Shown piece after piece: positions 3,129 to 18,231 of a stretch of DNA of 21,338 bases. The DNA lies in IMG/VR virus record IMGVR_UViG_3300044634_004722, positions 1 through 21,338 of that record; one strand, given 5' to 3'. Below the pieces are notes generated by a model, which ran no database searches, was not told the origin of the DNA, and saw only the letters and a program-made list of their open reading frames with translations. Source of the stretch: a virus. The first letter of the stretch is position 1, and every line of letters starts with the position of its first letter. The position numbers and the translations under genes were made by a program.

Positions 3129-3458
3129 TTACCTTGTAACTTCGGGAGTTACTGTTACAATTCCTTCTACTATTCTTGAAACGATGTTAGAAGAGCTAGT
3201 AACTTCAACATCGTAAACATATCTACCAGCTACTAAATTCGATGTTTGAGTAGATGTTAAACTCAATGTTACTGTTCCTTGTGTTCCACCAAGAGAGACT
3301 GAAAAACTTTGAGAATTTGATGAGGAATAATGTTTACGGATCTGTGAGTTGGCAGAATACCCAGTTAGGTCAATAGCGTCTCCGTTTTCATCAGCTAAGT
3401 TTATAACTGTAGAAAACGTTGTTCCTTGATCTATAACTATATTAGCCTTGGTTGCCAT
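3129..3458 (-). CDS. Ig-like baseplate/fibre accessory protein, 109 aa
   Basis: The protein reads [40 protein letters not shown], then [20 protein letters not shown] and ends [12 protein letters not shown]. The pattern 'i.i.qG.tf...i...d.nG..idLtGysa.aqiRk.......f.......G.v.L.Lt...T..L..GrYvYDv...' is a recognised single beta-sandwich of phage structural proteins. It resembles the N-terminal Ig-like domain of BppU-type baseplate upper proteins, and small proteins of this kind are common in marine T4-like phages. The ATG lies inside the last codons of the S74 fibre gene (17-nt overlap, different frame) and has only a weak GAGATGA ribosome site, so coupling to that gene is likely. A connector or decoration role near the fibres is inferred. 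Confidence 0.72.
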
Positions 3459-4995
3459 TTTTCATCTCGTTCATTTGATTTTTAAGATCATCAACTTCAT
3501 TCTTGAGTTCCTTGATAGCCTCGATAAGAAGAGGAACCAATCTCTCATATTTAACTGTCAAGTATTTATCATCTATTGGAGCAGGTGCTACTGTCTCAGG
3601 CTGAACAGCATTAACTTCCTGTGCTGATATTCCAACTTCGCGTTTTACCTTGTATCCAAGTGACTGTGCTATCTCATTAGCTTCATAATAAAACCCTGAT
3701 AGATGCATAACCTTGTCAAGAGCTTTTAAAATTGGACCTAATTTAGTTTTAAGTCTTTCATCTGAAAAATAAGCTGTAATGTCTCCAATTGCACGAATCT
3801 CACCAGCTGTTCCTGTTGCAGCTGTACCAACGCCAAGTGAATTTACCTGAGCATTTGATCCTGTTGAAAATCCTCCTGTAGGACCCGTTGGACCCGTTGG
3901 GCCTGTTGGACCTTGAGCACCTTGAGCACCCTGAGCACCTGTAGGGCCTGTAGGACCAGCTGGACCCTGAGCACCCTGAGGACCTGTTGGTCCAGTAGGA
4001 CCCGTAGCACCCTGCGCTCCTTGTGCACCCTGTGGTCCTGTTGGACCTAATGGACCTGTAGGACCTTGAGCACCCTGAGCACCCTGAGCACCCTGAGCAC
4101 CCTGTGGTCCTGTTGGTCCAGTAGGACCAGTAGCACCTTGAGGACCGACAACAGCTGCACCGTTGATTGTAAAACCAGTGGCTGACATTGTTGCATTGGT
4201 AGTACTGTTACCAACCCTTACAATTGATGTATTGACAGATATATTAGCACCAATGGAAACCGTATCCGACACTCTCAACGAGCCAGTAACTTCAAGAGCT
4301 ACGCCAGGTGATGTATTTGCAACCCCGACTCTGTTATTAACAGAATCAACAAAGAGAACTCCAGAATCAAAATTAGTGTTACCTGATATTGTTTGCAGAG
4401 TACCGCTCAATACAGCATTACCTGAAAGTGTGGTGTTTCCTGTTATAGTTACATCACCACTGAAGTTACCAGAATTAGCAGATACTACAAACCTACCAGT
4501 CGAATTACCAAGTTGTATTGTATTAGACGTAGGTACTATAGCTGTCGTATTAGCAACGAATCCAGATGTTGTATGGCTAGCAGCATTAACTGTACCGGTA
4601 TGATATACACCAGTAGTGTTGGCAATAAAACTAGAACCAACCGTCAACAATGCAGAATTAACAGATGTTGATACATTGGCAAACCCGGTTACTGTCGTGT
4701 TTCCGCTACTCAGAGTTTTCGAAAGAGTAACATCATCTTGTAGTGATGTTATTCCCGCCACTGTAAGAGTACTTGCAACGTTGGCAATATATCCCTGTAA
4801 ATTCCATCTGTTTACAGTGTTACCCAAGCTACGTTGATCCTGATCAGGAAGAAAATTACCTTGTACGGTCCCGCTGAAAGCAAGATTACCACCTACTGCC
4901 AGCGATCCTGATACGTCTAGATCACCGTTGACGTTGCTAGTAGCACGTGAATCAAAACCAAAATCTATTAATAGCTTACTATTTGCTGTTGCCAT
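3442..4995 (-). CDS. Tail fibre with collagen-like stalk and peptidase S74 chaperone tail, 517 aa
   Basis: Domains in order: a short head (1-25); beta-rich Asn/Ser/Thr shaft repeats (26-280), including modules shared with the neighbouring 368-aa fibre; an uninterrupted Gly-X-Y collagen-like tract (284-374); a short linker; and a C-terminal intramolecular chaperone of the peptidase S74 family (about 408-517). The chaperone opens with [12 protein letters not shown], the usual Ser-Asp cleavage region, followed by [18 protein letters not shown] and [20 protein letters not shown], and ends in a coiled coil (484-513). In this family the chaperone drives trimerisation of the fibre and then cuts itself off, here expected next to Ser411/Asp412. 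An AAGGAAAG ribosome site lies 4 nt before the ATG. The C-terminal end overlaps the next gene by 17 nt. The protein is very probably a trimeric adhesin. Confidence 0.93.
3874..4146 (-). repeat. Collagen-like Gly-X-Y tract, 30 triplets
   Basis: Residues 284-374 of the 517-aa fibre have Gly at every third position without a break. The triplets are mostly GPT, GAQ and GPQ. Such tracts form triple helices in phage fibres and fit the trimerising S74 domain that follows. Confidence 0.95.
4068..4103 (-). repeat. Four exact copies of a 9-bp unit inside the collagen tract
   Basis: On the plus strand GAGCACCCT is repeated four times without a mismatch. It encodes successive Ala-Gln-Gly triplets. Gain or loss of units would keep the reading frame. 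Confidence 0.9.
4267..4398 (-). repeat. Shared fibre module P, copy in the 517-aa fibre
   Basis: Residues 200-243 ([20 protein letters not shown], then [19 protein letters not shown]) are paralogous to residues 121-164 of the 368-aa fibre. Here the module lies after module Q. Confidence 0.9.
4438..4671 (-). repeat. Shared fibre module Q, copy in the 517-aa fibre
   Basis: Residues 109-186 ([19 protein letters not shown] through [15 protein letters not shown]) align without gaps to residues 164-241 of the 368-aa fibre, at about 80% identity counted by eye. The DNA has drifted more, mostly at synonymous sites. Confidence 0.92.
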
Positions 4996-5005
4996 CTAAC
5001 TTTCC

Positions 5006-6112
5006 TTAGATAATCATGTTTGCTAAAATCTTTACTGATGAATTACTTGCTCTTTGACGCATGTTAACATCAATGTTTGTCGAATTAACAGTCATGACTA
5101 TATTGTTGGCAAGTGGTGAAGAGCTGGAAGGTGCAACAATTGTTCCGTAAATAGTTTGATTGACATCAACACCATTGTGTGCAAACAATATCTTTGTAAT
5201 TTGATACTCAGAACCCCTTGAAAGATATACAAGTAACTCTCCAGCTTGGTGATTTGCTTTTGGGAAACTGATAGCTGTTACATTTGCAGTTGTGTTAGAT
5301 CCTAGATCTGTATTTGCAAATGTTAAAAATGTTGCAAATGTATTTATTGATACGTTTCCAGAAACATTTAAACTACCGCTGTTTGAAGAACCAGTAATAC
5401 TAACGTTGCCACTGAAGTTACCTGAGTTTGCTGATAATACATATCTACCTGTGCTGTTTCCAAGCAGTATGGTATTAGAAGTTGGAACTATTGCTGTTGA
5501 GTTTGCAACTAGCCCAGATGTCGTGAAGCTAGCAGCATTGATTGTACCTGTGTGAAAAGCACCAGTTGTATTGGCAACAAAGGATGTTCCCACAGTCAGT
5601 AAGGAAGAGTTTACGGATACAGATACGTTTGCTGCACCAGTAACGACAAAAGCGACATCAGGGGCTGTGTTATTAACTCCAACTCGGTTATTAGTTGCAT
5701 CAACAAATAACACACCTGAATCAAAATTAGCATTTCCAGATATTGTTTGAAGCGCTCCACCAAAATTAGTATTACCAGCTACTACTAATTGTAGGTCCGT
5801 ATCAATTGTCGTTGTGGATATTACAGTATTAACTGTAGTATTACCAATTGACACGTTACTGGTGATGTACAGAACATTAGATGTTGTTGTGTTTCCACCT
5901 CTCAAACCAAATGTTGTATTGCCATTAATCGTAACCGAGTTAGCAGTAAAAATACCATTAACAGTACCGTTACCAGTGGTAAGTCCACCTTGACTATTTG
6001 CAGCTGTCGTTACTATTGTTGTTGAGTATGCGTCAAGCAATATATTAGTTTTATCGATCCAATTTTGAAACGAGTCAGTTACGGTACTTACATTTGATGT
6101 AGCCAGAGCCAT
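5006..6112 (-). CDS. Tail-fibre/virion surface protein, 368 aa
   Basis: The N-terminus (SFQNWIDKTNILLDAYSTTI, residues 14-33, then GGLTTGNGTVNG) is a recognised N-terminal unit of marine phage fibre proteins. The middle (50-255) is an Asn/Ser/Thr-rich beta shaft with modules P (121-164) and Q (164-241), both also present in the 517-aa fibre. The C-terminal part (about 280-368) has EYQITKILFAHNGVDVNQTI, YGTIVAP and a final SSVKILANMII. This fits a compact C-terminal head found on several phage fibres ('qvtkill.hdG......eyGtv'). It lacks the collagen stalk and S74 tail of its neighbour. It lies 3 nt after the 71-aa gene with a weak AAAGAG ribosome site. It probably forms a second, shorter fibre or a connector; which one cannot be told. 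Confidence 0.85.
   Translation of the reverse strand: MALATSNVSTVTDSFQNWIDKTNILLDAYSTTIVTTAANSQGGLTTGNGTVNGIFTANSVTINGNTTFGLRGGNTTTSNVLYITSNVSIGNTTVNTVISTTTIDTDLQLVVAGNTNFGGALQTISGNANFDSGVLFVDATNNRVGVNNTAPDVAFVVTGAANVSVSVNSSLLTVGTSFVANTTGAFHTGTINAASFTTSGLVANSTAIVPTSNTILLGNSTGRYVLSANSGNFSGNVSITGSSNSGSLNVSGNVSINTFATFLTFANTDLGSNTTANVTAISFPKANHQAGELLVYLSRGSEYQITKILFAHNGVDVNQTIYGTIVAPSSSSPLANNIVMTVNSTNIDVNMRQRASNSSVKILANMII
5390..5623 (-). repeat. Shared fibre module Q, copy in the 368-aa fibre
   Basis: Residues 164-241, including FVANTTGAFHTGTINAAS and TILLGNSTGRYVLSANSGNF. It follows module P directly, whereas in the 517-aa fibre it precedes it. Confidence 0.92.
5621..5752 (-). repeat. Shared fibre module P, copy in the 368-aa fibre
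   Basis: Residues 121-164 ([20 protein letters not shown], then NNRVGVNNTAPDVAFVVTG). It resembles the 'sG..gIGT.sP' type unit that often precedes fibre shafts. Confidence 0.9.
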
Positions 6113-6332: not shown

Positions 6333-9300
6333 TTATATTGATACAGCTAATGCTCTGACATCCGATAATATAGGAACAAACTTACTTGAGCTAGAAGTAA
6401 GCACGACTTTGATTGCAAATATTTTATAACTTGAATGTTGACCTCTATCAGCATCAAGATAGTTTACAATATTATCATTTCTATTGTATTTGAAAGCAGC
6501 TCCTGGCTGTGTTACCTTCTCGATTGAGGCACTTCCTGAGAATGTAGTATTCGACTTCAAAACAAGATGAGTACTATTTGTTACAGAATTGACAACTCCA
6601 AGATCATAGCTTGTTAGTGTATTTCCTTGAACAATTTTGACAACGTCATTAGCTACGAGTGAGGAGTTAAATGATGTTCCAGCACCGGTCAACGTTGTGT
6701 TACTAGACGAAGTAATAATACCGGTCAATAAGGTAGAAGGAGGTGTCTTTGGAAATGTGTACTCATATTCGATGTAATCATTTTCATTCAAAGAGTCACT
6801 GTATAGGTTGCTCTCTGTTACTTGATTGAGTAACGTCCAATCTCTATCTTCAAAAACAGTAGTGTCATCAGTAGCTAGTACTCTTGCATACACGTAGATA
6901 TTGGATGTAGATGGTTTATAAGCTGTAATGAATACTTTCATATCCTCAGCATCCAATCCATCTGCTAGAACTACGTTCTTGGAGATGTATCTTACCTTTG
7001 AGTTACCATACTTAGTGGTTTCATCAGTATTGTCGTTATTGATAATGTTTGACAAAGTTACAGCGCTGACCGGTGCTACGTCTATAACTGGTGAAACTGA
7101 GCTAAACGTATTGGCTCTTGTCAGATTGGCAAAAATCTTAAACGATTTTGAACCACTTGTGATTTCATTACTTCTAGATTTGAGCTGTCCTTCGTATCTA
7201 AGTGAATTAGATATCCCCTCCACCATACCAGTGTTAGCCGGTGTTGCTGTCACACCATCAATCCGTTGTATCAAGCTGACGGATGTTGTTGGAGGACTGA
7301 TGTATCTTATATGAGGTTCTGTAAAATTAACTACCTTATTGTCTACAGAAATAATAGTGGCCTTAGCTTGAGATATCTCACCAACTATGTTCTTAGATGA
7401 TTCAAATTTGAAGGTTGAATTTGACGCATTAGAATCTCTGACAACAATTGTACCGTCATTATTAAGAACATCAATAGTTCCCCTCACTACCTTCTGAATA
7501 GCTCCGTAGTAAGTAGATCCACCATCTATAACATAGTAAGGATAATCCTTCAAAGTAATAGATGATGAGTTAACACTATTTACTCTTGATATTTGAATAA
7601 CATCTGTAACACCGTAGTGAACATTTGATGATACTGTGTTGCTTAATGGACCATCAATCACTATGTGAGTTGCGTTGGTTGTAGCAGTGATTTCTCTAAC
7701 ATTTCCGTTGATAAGAATGTAATCACCAGGATCATATTCATTGACAAAATCTGTTCCAGATCCTATCACGTTAGTAGTAGAGGTGTTTCCAACAGTTACA
7801 GTTCCAGTTTTTACTGAAGCACCATTAGCATAAACCACCAACACGTAATCCCCGGATGCTAATGATCCAGTCTGCGATGTGGAAGTATTAACGACAAGAC
7901 TAGACGTGTTTGCAGTAATCGATCCGGTCAGGTATGTATTAGACTTTTGAGCAACCTCTTCACTCTCAACAAAAGAACCAGAAGTATTAGACACAGTCAA
8001 AAACTCATATGGGTCGTTTTCTAAAACAAGGGTAGCAGCTGTTTTTGTGAAGTTTGCAATGTAGACTTTGAATTTCAAATCTTCTGTCTGAACAGGAGTC
8101 CATGCTGTATCATTGGATGATAGGAACATTACTCCACCGCCCCAGTTCTTATTAGAAACCAAGTTAGTATTGACAACATCAGGTACACCTGTAGCAGCAG
8201 TCCATATCTGATAGTCGGGATTTTCTTGATCTGGCATTATGACAATACTGTAATCACTACTCGATTTCAAATAAACTGGAGTATCAAAAGTTACAGTGGT
8301 CGCAGAAGACCCGTTGTTACTTACAGATATTGAGGAGCTATTGAGAAATTTCTGACTCAATATAAATGGAGATGGGTATCCATTTTCCGTTTCTCTAATC
8401 TGTACAGTTATACCCAAACTACTGCTTTTAGTTTTAAAGTAAAGATCTACTTTAGTTAAAAATACTCCGTCAGATCCATTTTGCTGGTTTACGTTAAACG
8501 TTTGAGCTATAGGGTCTCTGCGAGGAGGAGGTGGCGGTGGTAATCTTGGTACCAAGATACTATTAACAGTCCTAGAGATATCAACTGTAGTGTTGGAAGA
8601 AGATATAACAGGAGTCGGTGTTTTTGTAGAGACTGTTAAAGTTGATGACTTTTTGTAAAAGTTATAAGCATTGAATGTAGTTCTACAAACAGAAATAGAA
8701 TCATCACTGCTGTTGTAATCATTATTATCCGCAATGGTAAGTGATCTCTCTCCAACAAAGAAGGTTTCTGGTTCTATGTAAAAAGCTCCAACAAGTGTAC
8801 CAGAAGAGCTAGAGATCAAAGAAGACCCTTTTGGACCTGTCCATGATGCAGTAGGTTCGTGCAGTATCCCTCTTGAATCCATAGTCTCTACATTGCTTAC
8901 CGTTGCAGGTCTTGACTGATTTGAAACATTAATCTTATCAAAGAACACAAAATGTTCTGTGTTTGGTCTCAAACCTACAGCAACAAAAGTTACCCACTGT
9001 GATCTTATATAAGCATTCATTCCAAAATCAGTTAAGAACTCACCAACTTGTTGAGTGTTAGTTAGTGTTCCTCCTGGCTGGAAAGAGTTTCTTACGGTTG
9101 TGGTTGTCGTGGTTATTGTCCTTTGATCAATACCCTCTGTCTGTATTGTTGGTGGAATAACAGTAGTCAACGAACCAACATCAACATTTATTTGTGTGCT
9201 ATCTCTCTTGAACTGTACATTATCATTAAGAGAGTTGACCAGCTGATTCAAAGGAGTTGCCAAATCGATAGTTACATTGACAGATCCTTTTTCAATATCA

Positions 9301-12300
9301 TAATAGTCATCATATTTTGGAAATAAACTTACTACTCCTTTGAATGACCATGTAGATTGAACTGGATTTCTAGTCTTATTTGCTATTGGCTGACTAATAA
9401 ATTCAACATCAGTATAATCAATAATACCATACTCTCCCTTGAATGTTACATTCGAGGAAGCGGAAGTGTTTGCTGTGAATTTTATTCTGTTCTTTTCAAT
9501 CTGCGGTCTTGCTGTTGAAGACCTGGTATCAACAAGAATAGTAAATTCAGGATCATTCACATTAGAAATATCATAGGAATTAAACGATTCAGCAAAGAAA
9601 CCGTTTTTGAATCTAGATACAGCTGTGTTTGATTCACTAGGAACCACTAGATTAGTAACACTGCTTTCAAGAGTATTGAATAGTGAGTAATACTCGAGTC
9701 TATTAATTCTGTCTTCAATAAACTTAATATCCTTCATTGTATAGCCTTTGACTTGGTCATGCTTAACCAATGTACTATACTCATTTCTTTTAGCTGCAAG
9801 TGCAGATTTTGGAGACAGTGAAGGGAACGGAGGAACAGTAATCGTTCCAAGCTTCATAGTTCCATCTGGCGCCTTAGGTGGGACAGGTGTAAGACTCGGT
9901 ACTCCTTCCACAACCGATACAGAGCTCTGAGGGGTAATAACTATTGTATCAACTCTGCTCAAATAGTGAACAATATCTGCTTGAAACTCTTCATTCGGTG
10001 TAGGAAAGAATATACTTCCTGTTAGTGTTTCTGAAGATGAAGGATCTACCGTTGCACCAGCAACAGATGTTGCGGCTGCATTAGCGGTATTAGCTGTTAT
10101 TGGTCTGAAATCAACTGCATCCCTCAGATTATAATATTTGTTAGTTTTAGGAGATATGTAGTAAGGAATATCCTGCGTTCTAATCTTATTACTTGGTAGA
10201 GATGGGGTAGCATCATCAACAGGGTATGATTCAGTAGAAATATAACTACCAGTTCCATGTGTGAATAAGTTCAATCTGACAAGAAGATTGGTTGAGCTTG
10301 TCAAAGAAAGACTGCTTCCGGGTTTCTTTCTGATATAAGAGAGACCGTAGTAATTATCGTTTTGACCTGTAATGAGTTCAAAGTTTGATGCTTGATTGGT
10401 TGTCGTGTTTGAATAGGTATTACTAGATCCAACATAAACAGCCACTATATTAAGTACATCTGGAACCCCCAAACACCATGGTCCTGTAGCAGTTGCTGAT
10501 AATTTATCTGTAGACAATTTCACATAAACATCTTTGACAACACTCTTCAATTTCGGAGAAGCACCGTCCACTCTCACATTTGAATATACTGTTGCAGAGG
10601 TAGTTCCACTGATTGTGTTACCAACAAAGATTGTAGCAGTATTACCATTACTATCAATTGACACATTAGCTGATCCCCTGTCTAGTCTGATGGGAACATT
10701 CTTTGGAAAAGCGTATACAAATGTGTTTGATGAAAGTGTAGGAGAAGGACCTACACCGTACACAGTCATTGATGTGTCGCCAGCTATAGTGCTGACTCTA
10801 AAATAATCATTATTTGACTGGAACTTAATATAGTCACCAGCATCTAACTCACTTATGAAGCTAGTACCGCTACCGGTCACAACGTTACCAGAAGTAGATA
10901 CTGTTCCAGTTAGATTTGTTGTTGAGTATGCATTTGACGCAGGTACAATAATCAAGTCTTTTTCTTGAGTATCATTGAGTGTGCTACTCACTGTGTACGG
11001 AAACTCTTCGCCAGTCCCTGTCAGTGATAGAGATGCAACTCCTGAGCTAAGAATAGAAACAGTTGAAATATTTCTGTAGATAAACTGCTCACCTTCAAAG
11101 TAACTAACGGCTGGGGTACCAGAATCAAAAATTAAACTATCAAAACTTGTTTCCTTAAGAACCGCATTACCAGTATCAAGAATCAAATCAGCAACACCAC
11201 CTGATACTTGTACGGATCTGACGCTAGAAAAGGATTTTCCAGGCTGCATATTAATATCAAATAGATATAGCCTGTAAATACAAGAAGGAGATCCAACCAC
11301 TCCGGATTGATATACAAGAGATTTCATTCTTGCTGTACCAATGATAGAGCCAGGAGAAGTAGGGGCTCCACCAAAATTATCAGATACATCATCTCCAGCA
11401 GTATCTCTCAGGTTAATAGATGTACCTGCGGAAAAATCGAAGTTTCCTAGTAATTCTTCAATTTCTACATAGTTTCCATAGTTTGTACTGATTGACTGAT
11501 TGTTACTGGTTACAGTGTTGTCAGACTTTCTAACAGGCACCCTCACTGTACCAGTGAGTTCAGATCTAAATCCATCAACATATGCAATACCGGGACTGAC
11601 AGCCAAATTTAAGTGTGTTGTATTACCTGATATTTCCTCGGTATAGAGACTGAATTGATTGACAACATAGTTACCACTCTCTTCCCTTGTTCTTCTTGAT
11701 AGTTCCGATGCAACAGAATTGAATTCAGTACTTGTTCTTCTCTTGGTAACGTTTCCATTTTCAAATTCTAAGATGGTCAAGAATTCACTGTTTGAGGCAG
11801 CGTTAGACGTGGCAATAGAAATCAAATTTGCTGTTAGCTGAAGTCTATGAGCACCTGGCGCTGTGTAATTGCTATACCCTTGGGCATTGTCTAGCAATGT
11901 GGAGTCCACGTTATTGTTGACTACCGTCTCTGAAGTAGAGAATCCCAATGAGATATCTGTTGGTACATTGGAGTATTTGTCAACTATAGTTATTTGATCT
12001 TCCACTCTAACAAAGTGACCTTTTTGATAAATTACCCCATCACTTGTTCTTACAGCAGATCCAACACCAACTGGTGCAGTGTATGAAGAATTTGCAACAC
12101 GCACTTGTGCAATATAATTTAGTGCAGTTAATGCCCCTGACGATCCAGTTGTAGTGGTAATTGTCAACGAAGGAGCAGCTATGTAACCAGATCCACCATC
12201 AGAAATTACAACATCTCTAATTGAACCATTTGCAAACGTAACGATATTAGCAGAAGCACCCGTACCACTGTTGCTTGTAAAAACAATTACATCAGAATTG

Positions 12301-12806
12301 CTATACAACGTTCCTGAAGCAGATATTTCAATGGACTGAACTGAATAATCTCTTGCATAAACCGTTAATACATCTGTATTCGAGTACTTCTTCTTTGCCC
12401 CTACTCCAGTGTTAATATATTTGATGAACAGTGTGGAAAGATCAGGATCCTGTGATTCCAATCCCTGAGCATAGTTTACAATCTCGGATGTTAAATTTGC
12501 AGAATCTTTTAGATAACCATTAGCGTAGTTGGATACAAGAGTTGTCTGACCATCTACCTGGAGATCTTCAAGTTTAACATAGTAGTAACTGAAATCAAAT
12601 GAGAGGCTACACCCCTTGATTATGGTACCTTGTTTGTAAATATTATCACCGAATCTTTCAACTTGATTCTGAAGAATAGTTTGTAACTGGGTTAATTCTC
12701 TTGCCTGAATAGGTACAGCTGGTCTGAAAAGAACTCTGTAAAAGTTTTTATCTTCATCAAAATCATCATAGTACGGTGATACATTGAAATCTGTATTAAG
12801 TGCCAT
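6333..12806 (-). CDS. Giant DUF4815-type baseplate/tail structural protein, 2157 aa
   Basis: The N-terminus (NVSPYYDDFDEDKNFYRVLF, then PIQARELTQLQTILQNQVER, residues 8-51) is the hallmark of the DUF4815 family of large virion proteins in marine T4-like phages. Further family marks are VSPGIAYVDGF (403-413), YNLRDAVDFRP (892-902), YTMKDIKFIEDRINRLEYYS (1022-1041) and NDPEFTILVD (1084-1093). A six-proline stretch (1423-1428) precedes a second region, DPIAQTFNV...FLTKVDLYFKTK...GYPSP (1431-1590). The C-terminus (FAIKVVLTSSSSKFVPILSD, then VRALAVSI) is also typical. Three copies of a beta module shared with gp7 lie at 632-700, 1666-1735 and 2027-2097. An AGAGGAAC ribosome site lies 4 nt before the ATG. 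Position after gp8 suggests it occupies the baseplate rim where T4 has gp9-gp10; this is inference. Confidence 0.9.
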   Translation of the reverse strand: MALNTDFNVSPYYDDFDEDKNFYRVLFRPAVPIQARELTQLQTILQNQVERFGDNIYKQGTIIKGCSLSFDFSYYYVKLEDLQVDGQTTLVSNYANGYLKDSANLTSEIVNYAQGLESQDPDLSTLFIKYINTGVGAKKKYSNTDVLTVYARDYSVQSIEISASGTLYSNSDVIVFTSNSGTGASANIVTFANGSIRDVVISDGGSGYIAAPSLTITTTTGSSGALTALNYIAQVRVANSSYTAPVGVGSAVRTSDGVIYQKGHFVRVEDQITIVDKYSNVPTDISLGFSTSETVVNNNVDSTLLDNAQGYSNYTAPGAHRLQLTANLISIATSNAASNSEFLTILEFENGNVTKRRTSTEFNSVASELSRRTREESGNYVVNQFSLYTEEISGNTTHLNLAVSPGIAYVDGFRSELTGTVRVPVRKSDNTVTSNNQSISTNYGNYVEIEELLGNFDFSAGTSINLRDTAGDDVSDNFGGAPTSPGSIIGTARMKSLVYQSGVVGSPSCIYRLYLFDINMQPGKSFSSVRSVQVSGGVADLILDTGNAVLKETSFDSLIFDSGTPAVSYFEGEQFIYRNISTVSILSSGVASLSLTGTGEEFPYTVSSTLNDTQEKDLIIVPASNAYSTTNLTGTVSTSGNVVTGSGTSFISELDAGDYIKFQSNNDYFRVSTIAGDTSMTVYGVGPSPTLSSNTFVYAFPKNVPIRLDRGSANVSIDSNGNTATIFVGNTISGTTSATVYSNVRVDGASPKLKSVVKDVYVKLSTDKLSATATGPWCLGVPDVLNIVAVYVGSSNTYSNTTTNQASNFELITGQNDNYYGLSYIRKKPGSSLSLTSSTNLLVRLNLFTHGTGSYISTESYPVDDATPSLPSNKIRTQDIPYYISPKTNKYYNLRDAVDFRPITANTANAAATSVAGATVDPSSSETLTGSIFFPTPNEEFQADIVHYLSRVDTIVITPQSSVSVVEGVPSLTPVPPKAPDGTMKLGTITVPPFPSLSPKSALAAKRNEYSTLVKHDQVKGYTMKDIKFIEDRINRLEYYSLFNTLESSVTNLVVPSESNTAVSRFKNGFFAESFNSYDISNVNDPEFTILVDTRSSTARPQIEKNRIKFTANTSASSNVTFKGEYGIIDYTDVEFISQPIANKTRNPVQSTWSFKGVVSLFPKYDDYYDIEKGSVNVTIDLATPLNQLVNSLNDNVQFKRDSTQINVDVGSLTTVIPPTIQTEGIDQRTITTTTTTVRNSFQPGGTLTNTQQVGEFLTDFGMNAYIRSQWVTFVAVGLRPNTEHFVFFDKINVSNQSRPATVSNVETMDSRGILHEPTASWTGPKGSSLISSSSGTLVGAFYIEPETFFVGERSLTIADNNDYNSSDDSISVCRTTFNAYNFYKKSSTLTVSTKTPTPVISSSNTTVDISRTVNSILVPRLPPPPPPRRDPIAQTFNVNQQNGSDGVFLTKVDLYFKTKSSSLGITVQIRETENGYPSPFILSQKFLNSSSISVSNNGSSATTVTFDTPVYLKSSSDYSIVIMPDQENPDYQIWTAATGVPDVVNTNLVSNKNWGGGVMFLSSNDTAWTPVQTEDLKFKVYIANFTKTAATLVLENDPYEFLTVSNTSGSFVESEEVAQKSNTYLTGSITANTSSLVVNTSTSQTGSLASGDYVLVVYANGASVKTGTVTVGNTSTTNVIGSGTDFVNEYDPGDYILINGNVREITATTNATHIVIDGPLSNTVSSNVHYGVTDVIQISRVNSVNSSSITLKDYPYYVIDGGSTYYGAIQKVVRGTIDVLNNDGTIVVRDSNASNSTFKFESSKNIVGEISQAKATIISVDNKVVNFTEPHIRYISPPTTSVSLIQRIDGVTATPANTGMVEGISNSLRYEGQLKSRSNEITSGSKSFKIFANLTRANTFSSVSPVIDVAPVSAVTLSNIINNDNTDETTKYGNSKVRYISKNVVLADGLDAEDMKVFITAYKPSTSNIYVYARVLATDDTTVFEDRDWTLLNQVTESNLYSDSLNENDYIEYEYTFPKTPPSTLLTGIITSSSNTTLTGAGTSFNSSLVANDVVKIVQGNTLTSYDLGVVNSVTNSTHLVLKSNTTFSGSASIEKVTQPGAAFKYNRNDNIVNYLDADRGQHSSYKIFAIKVVLTSSSSKFVPILSDVRALAVSI
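6516..6728 (-). repeat. Beta module copy F, in the C-terminal domain of the giant protein
   Basis: Residues 2027-2097: LTGIITSSSNTTLTGAGTSF, then NDVVKI, then a T-h-L-V-L strand. It splits the conserved end domain, between EYEYTFPKTPP and AAFKYNRND. Confidence 0.8.
7602..7811 (-). repeat. Beta module copy E in the giant protein
   Basis: Residues 1666-1735: KTGTVTVGNTSTTNVIGSGT, then DFVNEYDPGDYILING, then THIVIDGPL. Confidence 0.82.
10707..10913 (-). repeat. Beta module copy D in the giant protein
   Basis: Residues 632-700: LTGTVSTSGNVVTGSGTSFI, then SELDAGDYIKFQSNNDYF, then TSMTVYG. It is closest by eye to copy A of gp7 (shared IKFQSNN..F). Confidence 0.85.
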
Positions 12807-12817
12807 TTGTTCCTCTA

Positions 12818-15115
12818 TTAAAATTCCAAGACAAGCTTCAAGGTTTCTGTTTGTCCGTTAGTTTTTGTGATTGGTGTGAAGTTCTCAATATATATAACGT
12901 CTCCAGAACCGTGAACCAAATCCGATGGAACGATACCTGACACGAGAAACTGCGCATCCGATGCATCACCAGTAATATAGTACTGCGTACCACCAACCTC
13001 ACTTTGGTTGATAGTTCCTTTTTTGTTGACTATCCGTACTACAGTGTTATTAGATGAGTAGAAAAACCCATTAGCATTTTCATTCTGAACTACTAACTCG
13101 TCTTCTGTGAATCCCTGAGCAGTTTGTAAGACACCTACAACTTTGTAAGTTTGATCAAAGTAGGTAGTTGGTTGCGTAGATGTATCGCATACGGCTGTAT
13201 ATCCAGATGAATTCCCTAACAGTAAACTCGTTGATGTGTTACCAGTAACAAAAAATCCATAAGTGTTCGTAAGTTTGACAATAGAATCGTTTGCAGAAAA
13301 TACAATACCTCGAGCTGTTGTTGTCTTGTTGGTGTCAACAACTGCAACAGCTGTAGCGGTATTTCCTGTCAAGCTATGACCTGTCTCGGATACACCAGCA
13401 GTGATATCTATTGCTCCTCCATTCAAACTTGATGACAACTTAACTCCTGTTGAATTAGCCTGAACAACAAAATAACTAGAATTGTTGGATAATGCTGATA
13501 GAGATGTATTGCCTGCAGCTACTAAGTATTTGACATAGTCGTTATTCTGAAATACATTATTAGAAATAGTAATGAAATCATTCGTGTTTGATACTGCAGT
13601 ATTCGAATTGAAAGAAACAGCTGAAGGAGCAGATATTGATATACTTGGTAGAATGTAACCCTGACCTGTATTGCTTATATTAATTTGAGATATTCTACCT
13701 GTTGAATTAGAACTTGCATTGGCAACAGCAGTAACGCTAGTTGTTCCGGATATTGTAACAACAGCATTAGAGGTGTATCCTGAACCAGGATTAGTAATTA
13801 CGATACCAGCAATAGGAGATCCTTGCGATTGAATTACTGTCTCCCCATCGGCAAAAACTCCAGTACTAGAACTTATTTCAAGGACCACGTTGGAAAATAA
13901 AGGGTCCTTAATTATTCCCACTGCTCTGAAATCATTTTCATCAACTAATTTGCTTCCAGAGACTGAGCTATCAAAAACTGTACTAATTCCAACATACCTC
14001 GCTCCCAACTCTGCAGCTGCATTGCTACCATGACCACCTTTAGGACTAATTATTACTTTGGCTGCTGCTGTGTTTGCTGTTATAGCAGTTCCTGTCGAAA
14101 CATTAATTATTCCAGTATTACCCGTTACCGTAACAGAAGCATAGCTGTATCCTGCTCCTCTCTGCACTACTTCAATACTGTATATTGTGTTACTTGATGT
14201 GTTAACAAGAGCCCTAGCTTGTGCACCTGAACCATCACCATCGATAGATACAAGTGGTGTAATTTCATATGTTGAGCTAGTTGTAGGATTGATATCGAAA
14301 GGAGAATCTATAATAACTCTTCTTGTAGAACCTGCAACAGTATATCCAGTAATAAATTTCTGTTGGCCGCTACCAGTTCCATTAGTAACTTTTAAAGCAG
14401 AGTTAATATAAAAATTAGCATTTGCTGAAGCATTAGATGGATCAATTGCATAAATCAAAGGATTACCACCAACTAAAACTTCTTGGAAAAATCCATTAGC
14501 ATATGATGCGTATCCACTTCCGCCTGACAAGACCTCTATATTGTCTATTGATCCTATCACAGAATTACTAACAACGTTAGCGTTAACAAACACTGGAATG
14601 TGAGATGCGGTGGCAAATTTTGTAAACTGAGTTGGTGTTATTGAATACATATACTTCCACTGATATCCATCAGCAGTTGTAAAGTAAAAATCATCATCGG
14701 CAGCTGTTTCTGACAGTCTAGGTCTATAAGTTGATGGAGTGCCTCGATTATTGTCTAAACACTTGAATACACTATAGGATGAATTTTCATCCGACAGAAC
14801 ATAAAAATTAGAACCCATAACATCAGGATCATCATGGGTGTATTTGTTGAACACTGTGTTAGCAACCCAATCATGCCTAGGTGTCATTTGAACAATATCA
14901 CTAGAGGTAATCCTCTTACCGTATATCATATTGTCATAAGGATCAATTAATGTGGTTTGAACATTATCATTCAAAACAGGTGGTGAATTATCATTAGCAA
15001 AAGGAACAGGGTTACCTACAAAAAAATAGTAAATATTAAAGTTAGGCTCTGAAAAAGATTCAATGAATTGATCAACATTGAAAAGTTTAATGTTGTTTGT
15101 GATAAGTTTGCTCAT
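12818..15115 (-). CDS. 8: Baseplate wedge protein, gp8-like, 765 aa
   Basis: The N-terminal 180 residues carry gp8 marks: MTPRHDWVANTVF (77-89), YSVFKCLDNNRGTPS (114-128) and TADGYQWKYMYSITP (147-161). These match 'PRrDW', 'vYrCLd' and 'DGYvWeYlf.i' of T4 gp8. SPKGGHGSNAAAELGARYVG (357-376) and the C-terminus GDVIYIENFTPITKTNGQTE (738-757), then LKLVLEF, fit marine gp8 homologues. T4 gp8 is 334 aa, so this version is more than twice as long. The extra sequence includes four GxGY beta repeats (198, 319, 443, 483) and a 503-585 unit ending ETGHSLTG. In T4, gp8 is a dimer in the wedge that binds gp7, gp10 and gp6. The start codon overlaps the gp7 stop as ATGA, so coupled translation is likely. 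Confidence 0.9.
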   Translation of the reverse strand: MSKLITNNIKLFNVDQFIESFSEPNFNIYYFFVGNPVPFANDNSPPVLNDNVQTTLIDPYDNMIYGKRITSSDIVQMTPRHDWVANTVFNKYTHDDPDVMGSNFYVLSDENSSYSVFKCLDNNRGTPSTYRPRLSETAADDDFYFTTADGYQWKYMYSITPTQFTKFATASHIPVFVNANVVSNSVIGSIDNIEVLSGGSGYASYANGFFQEVLVGGNPLIYAIDPSNASANANFYINSALKVTNGTGSGQQKFITGYTVAGSTRRVIIDSPFDINPTTSSTYEITPLVSIDGDGSGAQARALVNTSSNTIYSIEVVQRGAGYSYASVTVTGNTGIINVSTGTAITANTAAAKVIISPKGGHGSNAAAELGARYVGISTVFDSSVSGSKLVDENDFRAVGIIKDPLFSNVVLEISSSTGVFADGETVIQSQGSPIAGIVITNPGSGYTSNAVVTISGTTSVTAVANASSNSTGRISQINISNTGQGYILPSISISAPSAVSFNSNTAVSNTNDFITISNNVFQNNDYVKYLVAAGNTSLSALSNNSSYFVVQANSTGVKLSSSLNGGAIDITAGVSETGHSLTGNTATAVAVVDTNKTTTARGIVFSANDSIVKLTNTYGFFVTGNTSTSLLLGNSSGYTAVCDTSTQPTTYFDQTYKVVGVLQTAQGFTEDELVVQNENANGFFYSSNNTVVRIVNKKGTINQSEVGGTQYYITGDASDAQFLVSGIVPSDLVHGSGDVIYIENFTPITKTNGQTETLKLVLEF

Positions 15116-18100
15116 GTTGTTATTTCTACACCGGAAGATTTGATTGTAACATCCACGTTAGATACTTTGATTACATTACCAAATAACTTAGTGCCTGCTA
15201 CGTGCATCAGTTTCTTTAAAGTATCCCCATATGTCTCGAGCGGTAGCTCAGTTTGAATTTGATAAGAATAAAACTGGTAAAAATCACCGTCATGAATGTA
15301 TTTATCACTGTTGAGGAATCCCCTGGTGGATTTGAAATATCCCTCCCCAACTCCTTGATTAATAAGATTAGCATATCCGGTCGCAATGTATGCATTTGTA
15401 TCTATTTCTATGTTAATAGATTCTCCATCTTCATATGCGAAACCCGAATCTATCACTGACAGCGATGTTATAGATCCATTTACAATACCAGCAAAAGAGT
15501 TGACAACTGCATTGTTACCCATCAGTGACGATTCTTCTATCTGGGTAACAGATACCACGTTAGCGGTTGCCCCAGAGGTTGCCCCAGTTATTTCGACACC
15601 GGATGTGAAAGATTGATTGAATGTCTTTCTCTTGACGTTAATAAACGAAGCTCCGGAGTTGATCACTTTGCCTCTTGACAAGGATATTTGGGTATTTGAT
15701 ATTGATGTGTTCACAAAGAACTTAACACCACTGGTCATTCCTATAGCTACATTTGTAACTTCTGAAATAGAGTTAGATGTTGTAATTGAACTGTTGGTTG
15801 TTAAGTTGAGTATAGTGTTGTTGCTAATTGTATTAATTTGAAATATCAAATTGTTACCTGAAAACTTAATGAAGTCACCAGCTGATAATTCTGAAGTAAA
15901 CAATGTAGAAACACCATTTACTTGAGAGCTTGTTGCATTAGAAGAAACTGTACCAGTCAACGAACTACCAATCGCAGAATTCACAAATGTATTACCAAAG
16001 GTAGAATTTGAAAAAGCTGAGACCGTAACAACAGATACAGTTGTGTTCGAAGATCCAGCTATACCATATCCGTTAGCTGTAGAATTAATAATCTGAGTGA
16101 CACTTTCATTTAAAACTAGTCCACTGTTTGATCCACTTACCTGAAGAGTGAAGGCGGGATCAGAAAAGTTTTGAACTATCTCTTCATCATCTGTAAATGT
16201 TCCAACTTGATTTTCAACAACTAAGTTGAGATCACGTCTATTGAAATTGGCAAGTTCGTTATCCCTTACAAGAACAAACGGAGATATGTTGTAATCCGAT
16301 CCTGGATTAATGCCACTCAAAGAAGCTATTGTTCCGATATCATAGCTACCTCTTGTCAAGGCAAGATTTAGGAGAATACTAACATTACCAGTTGGTAGTT
16401 TTGGAAATCCATATTTCAATGCACTGAGAGGAGTTGATAGGTATGCCCCGTTAGTGATACTTATAGTGTTAGCCGATGAATTGATAGCATTGGTGTTAAG
16501 ATTCAATATAGTATTATTACTTACAGTGTTCACCTGAAACACTGTGTTATTACTTCCAATTTTTATGTAAGCACCATCGTAGAGTTCAGAGGTGAAAAGA
16601 GTTGACACACCATTTACCTGAGGACTTGTAGAATTAGAAGATATACTACCCGTCAATGCAACTGTTGTAATCGAGTTATTACCTCCAATTAAATCCGTAT
16701 TCAGATAAACTGTTTCCTCATCAGTCAGACTACCAACATTGAAATCAGCTCCAGTTCCAGTACTTACAACAGATACGTTAGCGTATACATTGGAAGTTCC
16801 ACCGTAAATAAAATTATACTGGTTTGATGTAAACGTGTTTGATACAGAGGATATTCCAATGTATTGAGAGTTGACTCCCATCACCGTGCCTGTTGCAGTT
16901 TTATCTGTATATGAATCAACAAGCGCTGATGTCCCATCAATCCTATCAGCCAGAGACCAATTACCCGAAGTAACTATGATAAGAAAACTTCCGTTTGCTG
17001 ACGTGACTGTATTAGCAACTACATCAGGACCCGTAGTTGTCAGTTGAAGACTTGTATTACTTGCAATAGAGCTGATCTGAAATGTTGAATTGTTAGACTG
17101 AAATTTAATAATATCGTTGTTAGCTAGATCTACTGAAAACTGTGTACCAATACCAGTCACTGTATTGGAAGTAGAGTTTGCTGTCGCTGTTCCAGTTACT
17201 GTTTTTTGTACTTTACCAACAATTCTTCCAGTAGCAACATTTGCTGTTGAATTAGCACCTGTTACTAGCTGAGCAAGAGAAAATGATGTGTTTGAAGAAC
17301 TAAAAACTATATTTGCAAGTGGTTGGTATACGGTCTCATCAATCAAAAAATTGGGAATGTAGGTGTTTGAGAATACCTTGTTAGAATAAGCTATCATTTT
17401 TTCAGCAATAACTGGAGAAGTCGTAAGTCTATAACCAGTACCACCATCTAACAGAGTAAATGTAACCTTACCAGTTTGCTGGCCAACAGAATCAATTCTT
17501 GCCTTACCTTGTTTTCCTCTTACCGCCGAAACAATATCGACTACGTCACCAACAGCAAAATCTCTACCAGCGTCATTGATTGTAATTTTAGTAAGAGATC
17601 CTATCACTTTGGGACAATCATTAAGACTGCCATCTGAAGTAATTAACTCATCAAGTAAGAAATCACCATTAACACTTGATAGATATATTACATCAAGATA
17701 TTTTCCGTTTATACTTTTTCTTCCTACTCCCTCAACAAAAGCTGAAGCACCAGATGTTGAACCAACAACTGTTTTACCAATGAAAGAGGGTGTCTTTGTC
17801 GATAAAGATACTTCAAGATAAACAGGAACAAACCATTCACCGTCTGAAGCTTTTATTACATCTTTACCTGGAAAATATACTTCTGTTTCTGAAACGTTAA
17901 AAACTCTGTTAAGAAATAGTTTAGTACCTCTTTCTGTTCCTTTTGATGAGTAAAAATCACCAGAATGCTTTACATTGAATCTTGTTCTATCAAAACTAAC
18001 TGGAGCACCTGTCAGGTACTTCAGTTTATAGTGGTACAAAAAATCATCTATAGTCTTGTCAATATCTCTATACTCAAGAAGGTTTCTTGTAAAGAAAATA

Positions 18101-18231
18101 TTATTATTGGTTTGCTCAGCCCATTGATAATATTCCTTTACAAAATCAACAAAAGTATTTCCTTGCTCTTTATAGAACTGCGGAAAGTGATTTTCGATTA
18201 ATAGACTAATATCATCTTCTATCTGCTTCAT
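15112..18231 (-). CDS. 7: Baseplate wedge protein, gp7-like, 1039 aa
   Basis: The N-terminus (DISLLIENHFPQFYKEQGNT, then FVDFVKEYYQWAEQ, residues 7-40) and the stretch FYSSKGTERGTKLFLNRVF (93-111) are typical of the gp7 wedge protein of marine T4-like phages. So is the C-terminus SDKYIHDGDFYQFYSYQIQT (975-994), then LKKLMHVAGTKLFGNV (1005-1020). The length is close to T4 gp7 (1032 aa), though direct similarity to T4 is weak by eye. The middle carries three copies of a beta module (345-415, 526-595, 758-828), two TSGA[ST]A units (159-164, 885-890) and one LDGGTGY motif (261). In T4, gp7 is the wedge core that contacts gp10, gp8 and gp6. Position between gp6 and gp8 supports the call. ATGA overlaps join it to both neighbours. 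Confidence 0.85.
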   Translation of the reverse strand: MKQIEDDISLLIENHFPQFYKEQGNTFVDFVKEYYQWAEQTNNNIFFTRNLLEYRDIDKTIDDFLYHYKLKYLTGAPVSFDRTRFNVKHSGDFYSSKGTERGTKLFLNRVFNVSETEVYFPGKDVIKASDGEWFVPVYLEVSLSTKTPSFIGKTVVGSTSGASAFVEGVGRKSINGKYLDVIYLSSVNGDFLLDELITSDGSLNDCPKVIGSLTKITINDAGRDFAVGDVVDIVSAVRGKQGKARIDSVGQQTGKVTFTLLDGGTGYRLTTSPVIAEKMIAYSNKVFSNTYIPNFLIDETVYQPLANIVFSSSNTSFSLAQLVTGANSTANVATGRIVGKVQKTVTGTATANSTSNTVTGIGTQFSVDLANNDIIKFQSNNSTFQISSIASNTSLQLTTTGPDVVANTVTSANGSFLIIVTSGNWSLADRIDGTSALVDSYTDKTATGTVMGVNSQYIGISSVSNTFTSNQYNFIYGGTSNVYANVSVVSTGTGADFNVGSLTDEETVYLNTDLIGGNNSITTVALTGSISSNSTSPQVNGVSTLFTSELYDGAYIKIGSNNTVFQVNTVSNNTILNLNTNAINSSANTISITNGAYLSTPLSALKYGFPKLPTGNVSILLNLALTRGSYDIGTIASLSGINPGSDYNISPFVLVRDNELANFNRRDLNLVVENQVGTFTDDEEIVQNFSDPAFTLQVSGSNSGLVLNESVTQIINSTANGYGIAGSSNTTVSVVTVSAFSNSTFGNTFVNSAIGSSLTGTVSSNATSSQVNGVSTLFTSELSAGDFIKFSGNNLIFQINTISNNTILNLTTNSSITTSNSISEVTNVAIGMTSGVKFFVNTSISNTQISLSRGKVINSGASFINVKRKTFNQSFTSGVEITGATSGATANVVSVTQIEESSLMGNNAVVNSFAGIVNGSITSLSVIDSGFAYEDGESINIEIDTNAYIATGYANLINQGVGEGYFKSTRGFLNSDKYIHDGDFYQFYSYQIQTELPLETYGDTLKKLMHVAGTKLFGNVIKVSNVDVTIKSSGVEITT
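15748..15960 (-). repeat. Beta module copy C in gp7
   Basis: Residues 758-828: LTGTVSSNATSSQVNGVSTL, then FTSELSAGDFIKFSGNN, then NNTILNLTT. It shares QVNGVSTLFTSEL exactly with copy B. Confidence 0.92.
16447..16656 (-). repeat. Beta module copy B in gp7
   Basis: Residues 526-595: LTGSISSNSTSPQVNGVSTL, then FTSELYDGAYIKIGSNN, then NNTILNLNT. It is the closest relative of copy C, pointing to a duplication inside the gene. Confidence 0.92.
16987..17199 (-). repeat. Beta module copy A in gp7
   Basis: Residues 345-415: VTGTATANSTSNTVTGIGTQ, then FSVDLANNDIIKFQSNN, then SNTSLQLTT. By eye it is closer to copy D in the giant protein than to B or C of its own gene. Confidence 0.88.

Follow-up and report, generated by a model that had tools for sequence, protein, structure and literature searches.

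How a small protein unit comes to stand six times in two different baseplate proteins of one phage, and what it does there, is the question raised by the IMG/VR virus record IMGVR_UViG_3300044634_004722. The window analysed here is the whole record of 21,338 bases, whose minus strand encodes the baseplate cluster of a T4-like phage: a gp5-type hub, an open reading frame (ORF) of 96 amino acids (aa), gp25, gp6, a gp7-like wedge protein, gp8, a VrlC protein of 2157 aa and tail-fibre-like genes. An earlier note on this DNA had described a unit of about 70 residues with three copies in the gp7-like protein (A, B and C) and three in the giant protein (D, E and F), and had suggested both duplication within a gene and exchange between genes. 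Judged by profile comparison, the six segments are one shared module.

All six copies are present at the residues given in the earlier note, on the minus strand, and all are recovered by leave-one-out profiles. The gp7-like protein carries copy A at residues 345-415 (16987..17199), B at 526-595 (16447..16656) and C at 758-828 (15748..15960), with independent E-values (i-E) of 1e-14, 2e-21 and 2e-23, respectively. The corresponding values in VrlC are 3e-17 for D (residues 632-700; 10707..10913), 2e-5 for E (1666-1735; 7602..7811) and 2e-8 for F (2027-2097; 6516..6728), the last of which has a 5-residue insertion. Immediately before E, a partial seventh copy of half length (residues 1626-1661; 7824..7931, minus strand) was detected with an i-E of 3e-5 to 2e-4, covering profile positions 1-37 (E 1.8e-5). 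Profiles made from the copies of one protein also recover all three copies of the other, in both directions. N, S and T abound in both proteins, which lends itself to the view that the segments are unrelated N/S/T-rich beta repeats, alike by composition only. However, in each of 12 tests the real score exceeded that of every one of 1000 shuffles that preserved composition, and copy E, the weakest across proteins, still reached 15.1 bits versus 9.8 for the best shuffle. As none of the shuffles attained the real score, the likeness is not an artefact of N/S/T composition, and with leave-one-out E-values of 2e-5 to 2e-23 the probability left to that explanation is negligible. The repeated unit is therefore real, but its conserved part is nearer 58-61 residues across relatives than the 70 first proposed. 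G3, G16, T19 and F21 are invariant in 43 diverse copies.

Most likely, the module is a small autonomous all-beta domain of ~60 residues with six predicted strands. AlphaFold models were made for the whole gp7-like protein and for VrlC residues 600-1735, which together cover copies A-E. Both are poor overall, with a mean predicted local distance difference test score (pLDDT) of 44 and 56 and a predicted template modelling score (pTM) of 0.23 and 0.30, respectively; the modules are among the more confident parts of both (pLDDT ~67-83 for copy D). Copies A-E are predicted to follow one order of elements, namely two strands, a short helix or turn at GT.F..EL, and then four strands; in copy A, the predicted strands span residues 344-351, 357-361, 374-377, 383-391, 394-397 and 404-411. 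Copies A-E thus agree in strand order; models of this quality leave the fold class unsettled. Foldseek matches of the gp7 model to Tudor/SH3-like proteins and EF-Tu, and a short match of the VrlC model to an ATP-synthase subunit, had E > 0.1 and were not relied on. Weak matches in the Protein Data Bank (PDB) to unrelated enzymes and other proteins were noise, being gone or insignificant with a deeper profile.

Both carriers can be identified as baseplate proteins. The gp7-like protein (15112..18231, minus strand; 1039 aa) matches phrog_17744, a baseplate wedge subunit, with E=8e-165, and its gene is placed between gp6 and gp8, in the order gp25-gp6-gp7-gp8-VrlC that is also found in Cr30 and phiM12. 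Its closest named phages, at ~40% identity, are Sinorhizobium phiN3/phiM12, Caulobacter Cr30 and Stenotrophomonas DLP_6. The top Foldseek matches of its model were T4-type chains of gp7 length (E=2e-5 over 133 columns), which were taken as gp7 from chain length and context, and residues ~14-119 align with residues 652-760 of Klebsiella phage KP1 gp7 at E=0.035, a profile match that is weak alone. A wedge domain in common with T4 gp7 is indicated by these matches, but they span only ~100-130 residues and either protein aligns in part, so that the full-length gp7 architecture was not found. About half of the window protein, in its middle, consists of modules and linkers that are missing in its shortest relative, RHph_I1_18. 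The 1016-aa "putative structural protein" of HTVC008M (AGE60389.1) is a further homologue of the gp7-like protein. In a published survey, T4 gp7 was absent from pelagimyophages and cyanomyophages, seemingly replaced by VrlC (PMC7029224); unlike in that picture, a gp7-like protein and VrlC are both present in the window.

The 2157-aa protein (6333..12806, minus strand) belongs to the VrlC/DUF4815 baseplate proteins, as it matches PF16075 with E=4.5e-54 (184 bits versus a cut-off of 30) and its gene follows gp8 in the baseplate cluster. It is homologous to ORF65 of Staphylococcus phage phi812 (PDB 9euf), both by sequence (E=3e-48) and by fold (E=1e-18), but ORF65 has 1152 aa, and none of the copies D, E and F falls within the aligned segments. 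The VrlC homologue of Caulobacter phage Cr30 (L110, 8158-14143) is split into two genes with three module copies between them, two of which are in the smaller second product. Between the two carrier genes of the window lies that of the wedge protein gp8 (12818..15115, minus strand; PF09215, E=6.5e-11), in which the profile search found no copy of the GT.F module.

The number of copies varies among gp7 orthologues. There are none in Cr30, phiM12, RHph_I1_18 and DLP_6, two in the L016-L023 group, three in the clade of the window and five in L013/L014, where one of them is broken up by another. The alignment of L016/L017, a sister lineage, shows a clean empty site in the place of copy B. L013 has a full C-type copy inserted into B, between the third and the fourth strand, and a further C-type copy ahead of A, with a single open frame throughout. 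The left junction of the nested copy occurs in exactly two contigs, which come from different metagenome datasets, so that an assembly error is unlikely; with 6 differing bases in an overlap of 5677 bases, the two contigs are nearly identical and represent one virus population. In the tree of copies, B joins C (support 96 for the main group) and the C of the two-copy lineage falls outside this group, which favours a gain of B by duplication of C. Duplication within gp7, as proposed in the earlier note, is supported by the copy numbers of zero, two, three and five, the empty B site and the nested C-type copy.

Exchange between the two genes fared differently. In favour of module copies having been swapped between the two genes by recombination, the best cross-gene matches score slightly higher inside one phage than across phages (mean rank 0.66; 0.5 would mean no excess). 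Nor is a clade of A plus D rejected (p 0.615 in the approximately unbiased (AU) test). However, copies at position A cluster together across phages, as do those at E and those at F (support 98, 99 and 99, respectively), and a tree of 178 copies needs only ~6 switches of gene label. The earlier note had placed copy A nearer to D than to its gp7 neighbours, but its identities of 41% to D, 37% to B and 39% to C do not differ meaningfully, and D-type copies are no nearer to A than to C of the window. Exchange between A and D is hence not supported, since A groups with the A of other phages and C is equally near D-type copies. The exact sharing of the peptide QVNGVSTLFTSEL by B and C holds at the protein level; in DNA, B and C agree at only ~60% of positions and encode QVNGVSTLFTSEL with different codons, so that the identical peptide does not reflect recent copying. 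Gene conversion as its source is likewise not supported, as no identical tract stands out. Recent exchange is thus unsupported, and recombination between the genes as an account of the copies appears very improbable. An ancient link between A and D, or an ancient exchange, is neither shown nor rejected by the AU test.

The earlier note had also allowed that such units might already be known as generic phage repeats, and this turned out well founded: as far as profile matches tell, the module is a generic, unnamed phage tail module. Its profile matches the tail-fibre families phrog_1980, phrog_17834, phrog_1591, phrog_24607 and phrog_12714 at profile positions ~5-74. Four of the six window copies (best E 2e-7) and 27 of the 43 diverse copies (best E 5e-11) match phrog_1980. 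The side fibre of the F2 pyocin (PDB 25ve, residues 7-59; E=1.7e-4) and the distal tail protein gp20 (PDB 23gd, residues 4-59; E=2.2e-4) match as well. The 25ve entry is not among the Foldseek matches listed for the two poor models, from which a date limit of the fold library may exclude it. One Ochrobactrum phage, OC, carries the module in its sheath (residues 159-211), and gp8 of one relative contig, L086, carries it too. Weaker matches (E ~0.02) fall on depolymerase N-termini; entry 7lzj is presumably the depolymerase of Klebsiella phage RAD2. The published model of that depolymerase starts at residue 191 (PMC8552709), and the module-matching N-terminal part would therefore be unresolved there. 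The first four of the fibre families and 25ve have the same profile and the pattern GTvt....VtG.GT.F...l..GD.i (PHROG E-values down to 5e-11), and the phrog_1980-type N-terminal module is matched over most of its length. They differ in having one copy near the N-terminus, whereas the window proteins have several internal copies; gp20 likewise is a 199-aa chain with a single N-terminal copy. Since all window copies are internal in wedge or VrlC proteins, they represent a homologous domain, not a fibre N-terminus. A search of Pfam gave no convincing family match for the six window copies or the 43 diverse copies, and a tblastn search of phage records with a single module gave no match. Promiscuous small beta domains are familiar in phage tail proteins from the Ig-like domains, but the window module is not an Ig-like Pfam family, no such family being matched by either set of copies. 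Its shuffling between proteins of the fibre, the baseplate and the sheath resembles the known domain mosaicism of phage tail proteins (PMC10684548).

What the module does in the baseplate can be approached from its location and its evolution. Module copies are under purifying selection: where measurable, the ratio of nonsynonymous to synonymous substitution rates (dN/dS) is 0-0.18, like that of the rest of gp7, and no diversifying selection was seen, there being no clear excess of amino-acid change compared with the rest of gp7. The account that we consider probable is that of an autonomous structural or adaptor domain, placed at tolerant loops of peripheral tail proteins, inherited in place and kept by purifying selection. 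Phages would reuse the module in the outer tail, where many side fibres begin with it and where it is inserted in wedge proteins, in VrlC and now and then in gp8 or the sheath. In the lineage of the window, a few loops of gp7 and VrlC that tolerate insertions would have received it, and each copy would have kept its site through later descent. Within gp7, duplication of a C-type copy would have filled one slot with B; one relative would have gained two more C-type copies, of which one lies within the beta3-beta4 hairpin of B. Both the order of these duplications and the mechanical job are conjectural; the latter may be that of a spacer, an arm or a docking surface for neighbouring baseplate or fibre proteins. 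The module may lengthen the wedge arms, or present a face for docking as at fibre N-termini. This account is supported by the homology of the copies, their variable number, the empty and nested sites, purifying selection and the presence of the module at fibre N-termini, as well as by the position of D, E and F outside the VrlC segments aligned with phi812 ORF65, itself a baseplate component.

Several points weigh against it. With models that are poor overall (pTM 0.23 and 0.30), the fold class of the module is not established. The synonymous rate (dS) is saturated in most comparisons. The gain rather than loss of B rests on a tree of 60 columns, in which a C-only clade without B is not rejected (p 0.697). 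The adaptor role is one that we infer, and as the module is N-terminal in fibres and internal here, its role need not be the same.

A surface domain on the baseplate rim, which the earlier note had considered possible, is plausible. Ig-like domains of phages have been proposed to bind glycans weakly, and by analogy the modules could decorate the surface and attach weakly to glycans of the host or the environment, with avidity raised by the large number of copies on the rim. The presence of the module in outer tail proteins, sheath included, and its variable copy number would suit such a function. On the other hand, none of the six window copies contains a tryptophan, the four invariant residues are typical of turns and core rather than of a binding face, the module shows no significant match to a carbohydrate-binding Pfam family, and amino-acid change in the module does not clearly exceed that of the rest of gp7. 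Receptor or glycan binding by the module is accordingly possible but unsupported, and we regard the decoration scenario as unlikely. Less likely still are (nearly) neutral insertions that persist in tolerant loops after duplication by chance illegitimate recombination. Variation in presence and absence, the nested insertion and a gp7 that lacks any copy in several cultured phages would all fit such a process, but the copies are intact and in frame, evolve at a dN/dS of ~0-0.18 and are orthologous in position across relatives, all of which speaks against it.

A second repeat, of GGxGY type, is common to three baseplate genes of the window, gp7, gp8 and VrlC. It was located at residues ~220-280 and ~642 of the gp7-like protein, ~197, 442 and 482 of gp8 (two or three copies) and ~203 of the giant protein; phrog_460 matches both gp8 (428-612) and the giant protein in this repeat. 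In the gp7 alignment, phiM12 has a GGTGY-type segment at the position of B, with a phrog_460 match at residues 618-840, which hints that this loop accepts different modules. It is conceivable, though we hold it only tentatively, that wedge proteins have preferred slots for interchangeable small beta modules, with copy-and-paste of the GT.F module within gp7, even of a module inside a module, and a B slot that holds a GGxGY-type segment in phiM12 and is empty in other phages. This reading draws on few sequences and one alignment.

Repeats are also found in the tail-fibre-like genes nearby. The adjacent genes at 3442-4995 and 5006-6112 are 62% identical over 131 residues, which looks like a duplicated fibre segment. 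The product of the former has collagen-like repeats, and its C-terminus matches many long-tail-fibre families. Within the 504-aa product of 1316-2830, units of the type V.AG.GI.SNATGV are repeated.

That phage tail and baseplate proteins are mosaics of domains was already known (PMC10684548), and the module itself is already visible in PHROG and PDB sequences. Within the literature searched, what seems to be new is that gp7 and VrlC each use it several times and that one copy is nested in another. With no convincing match in Pfam, the module merits an entry there, and annotators could then recognise inserts that hamper the alignment of gp7 and VrlC between phages. A domain seen so far mainly as the start of tail fibres is now tied to essential baseplate wedge proteins. 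The zero, two, three and five copies, with empty, filled and nested sites, form a series in which a contractile machine gains or loses a domain. If wedge proteins do have preferred slots, baseplate arms would evolve by adding or swapping small domains while the contractile core remains fixed.

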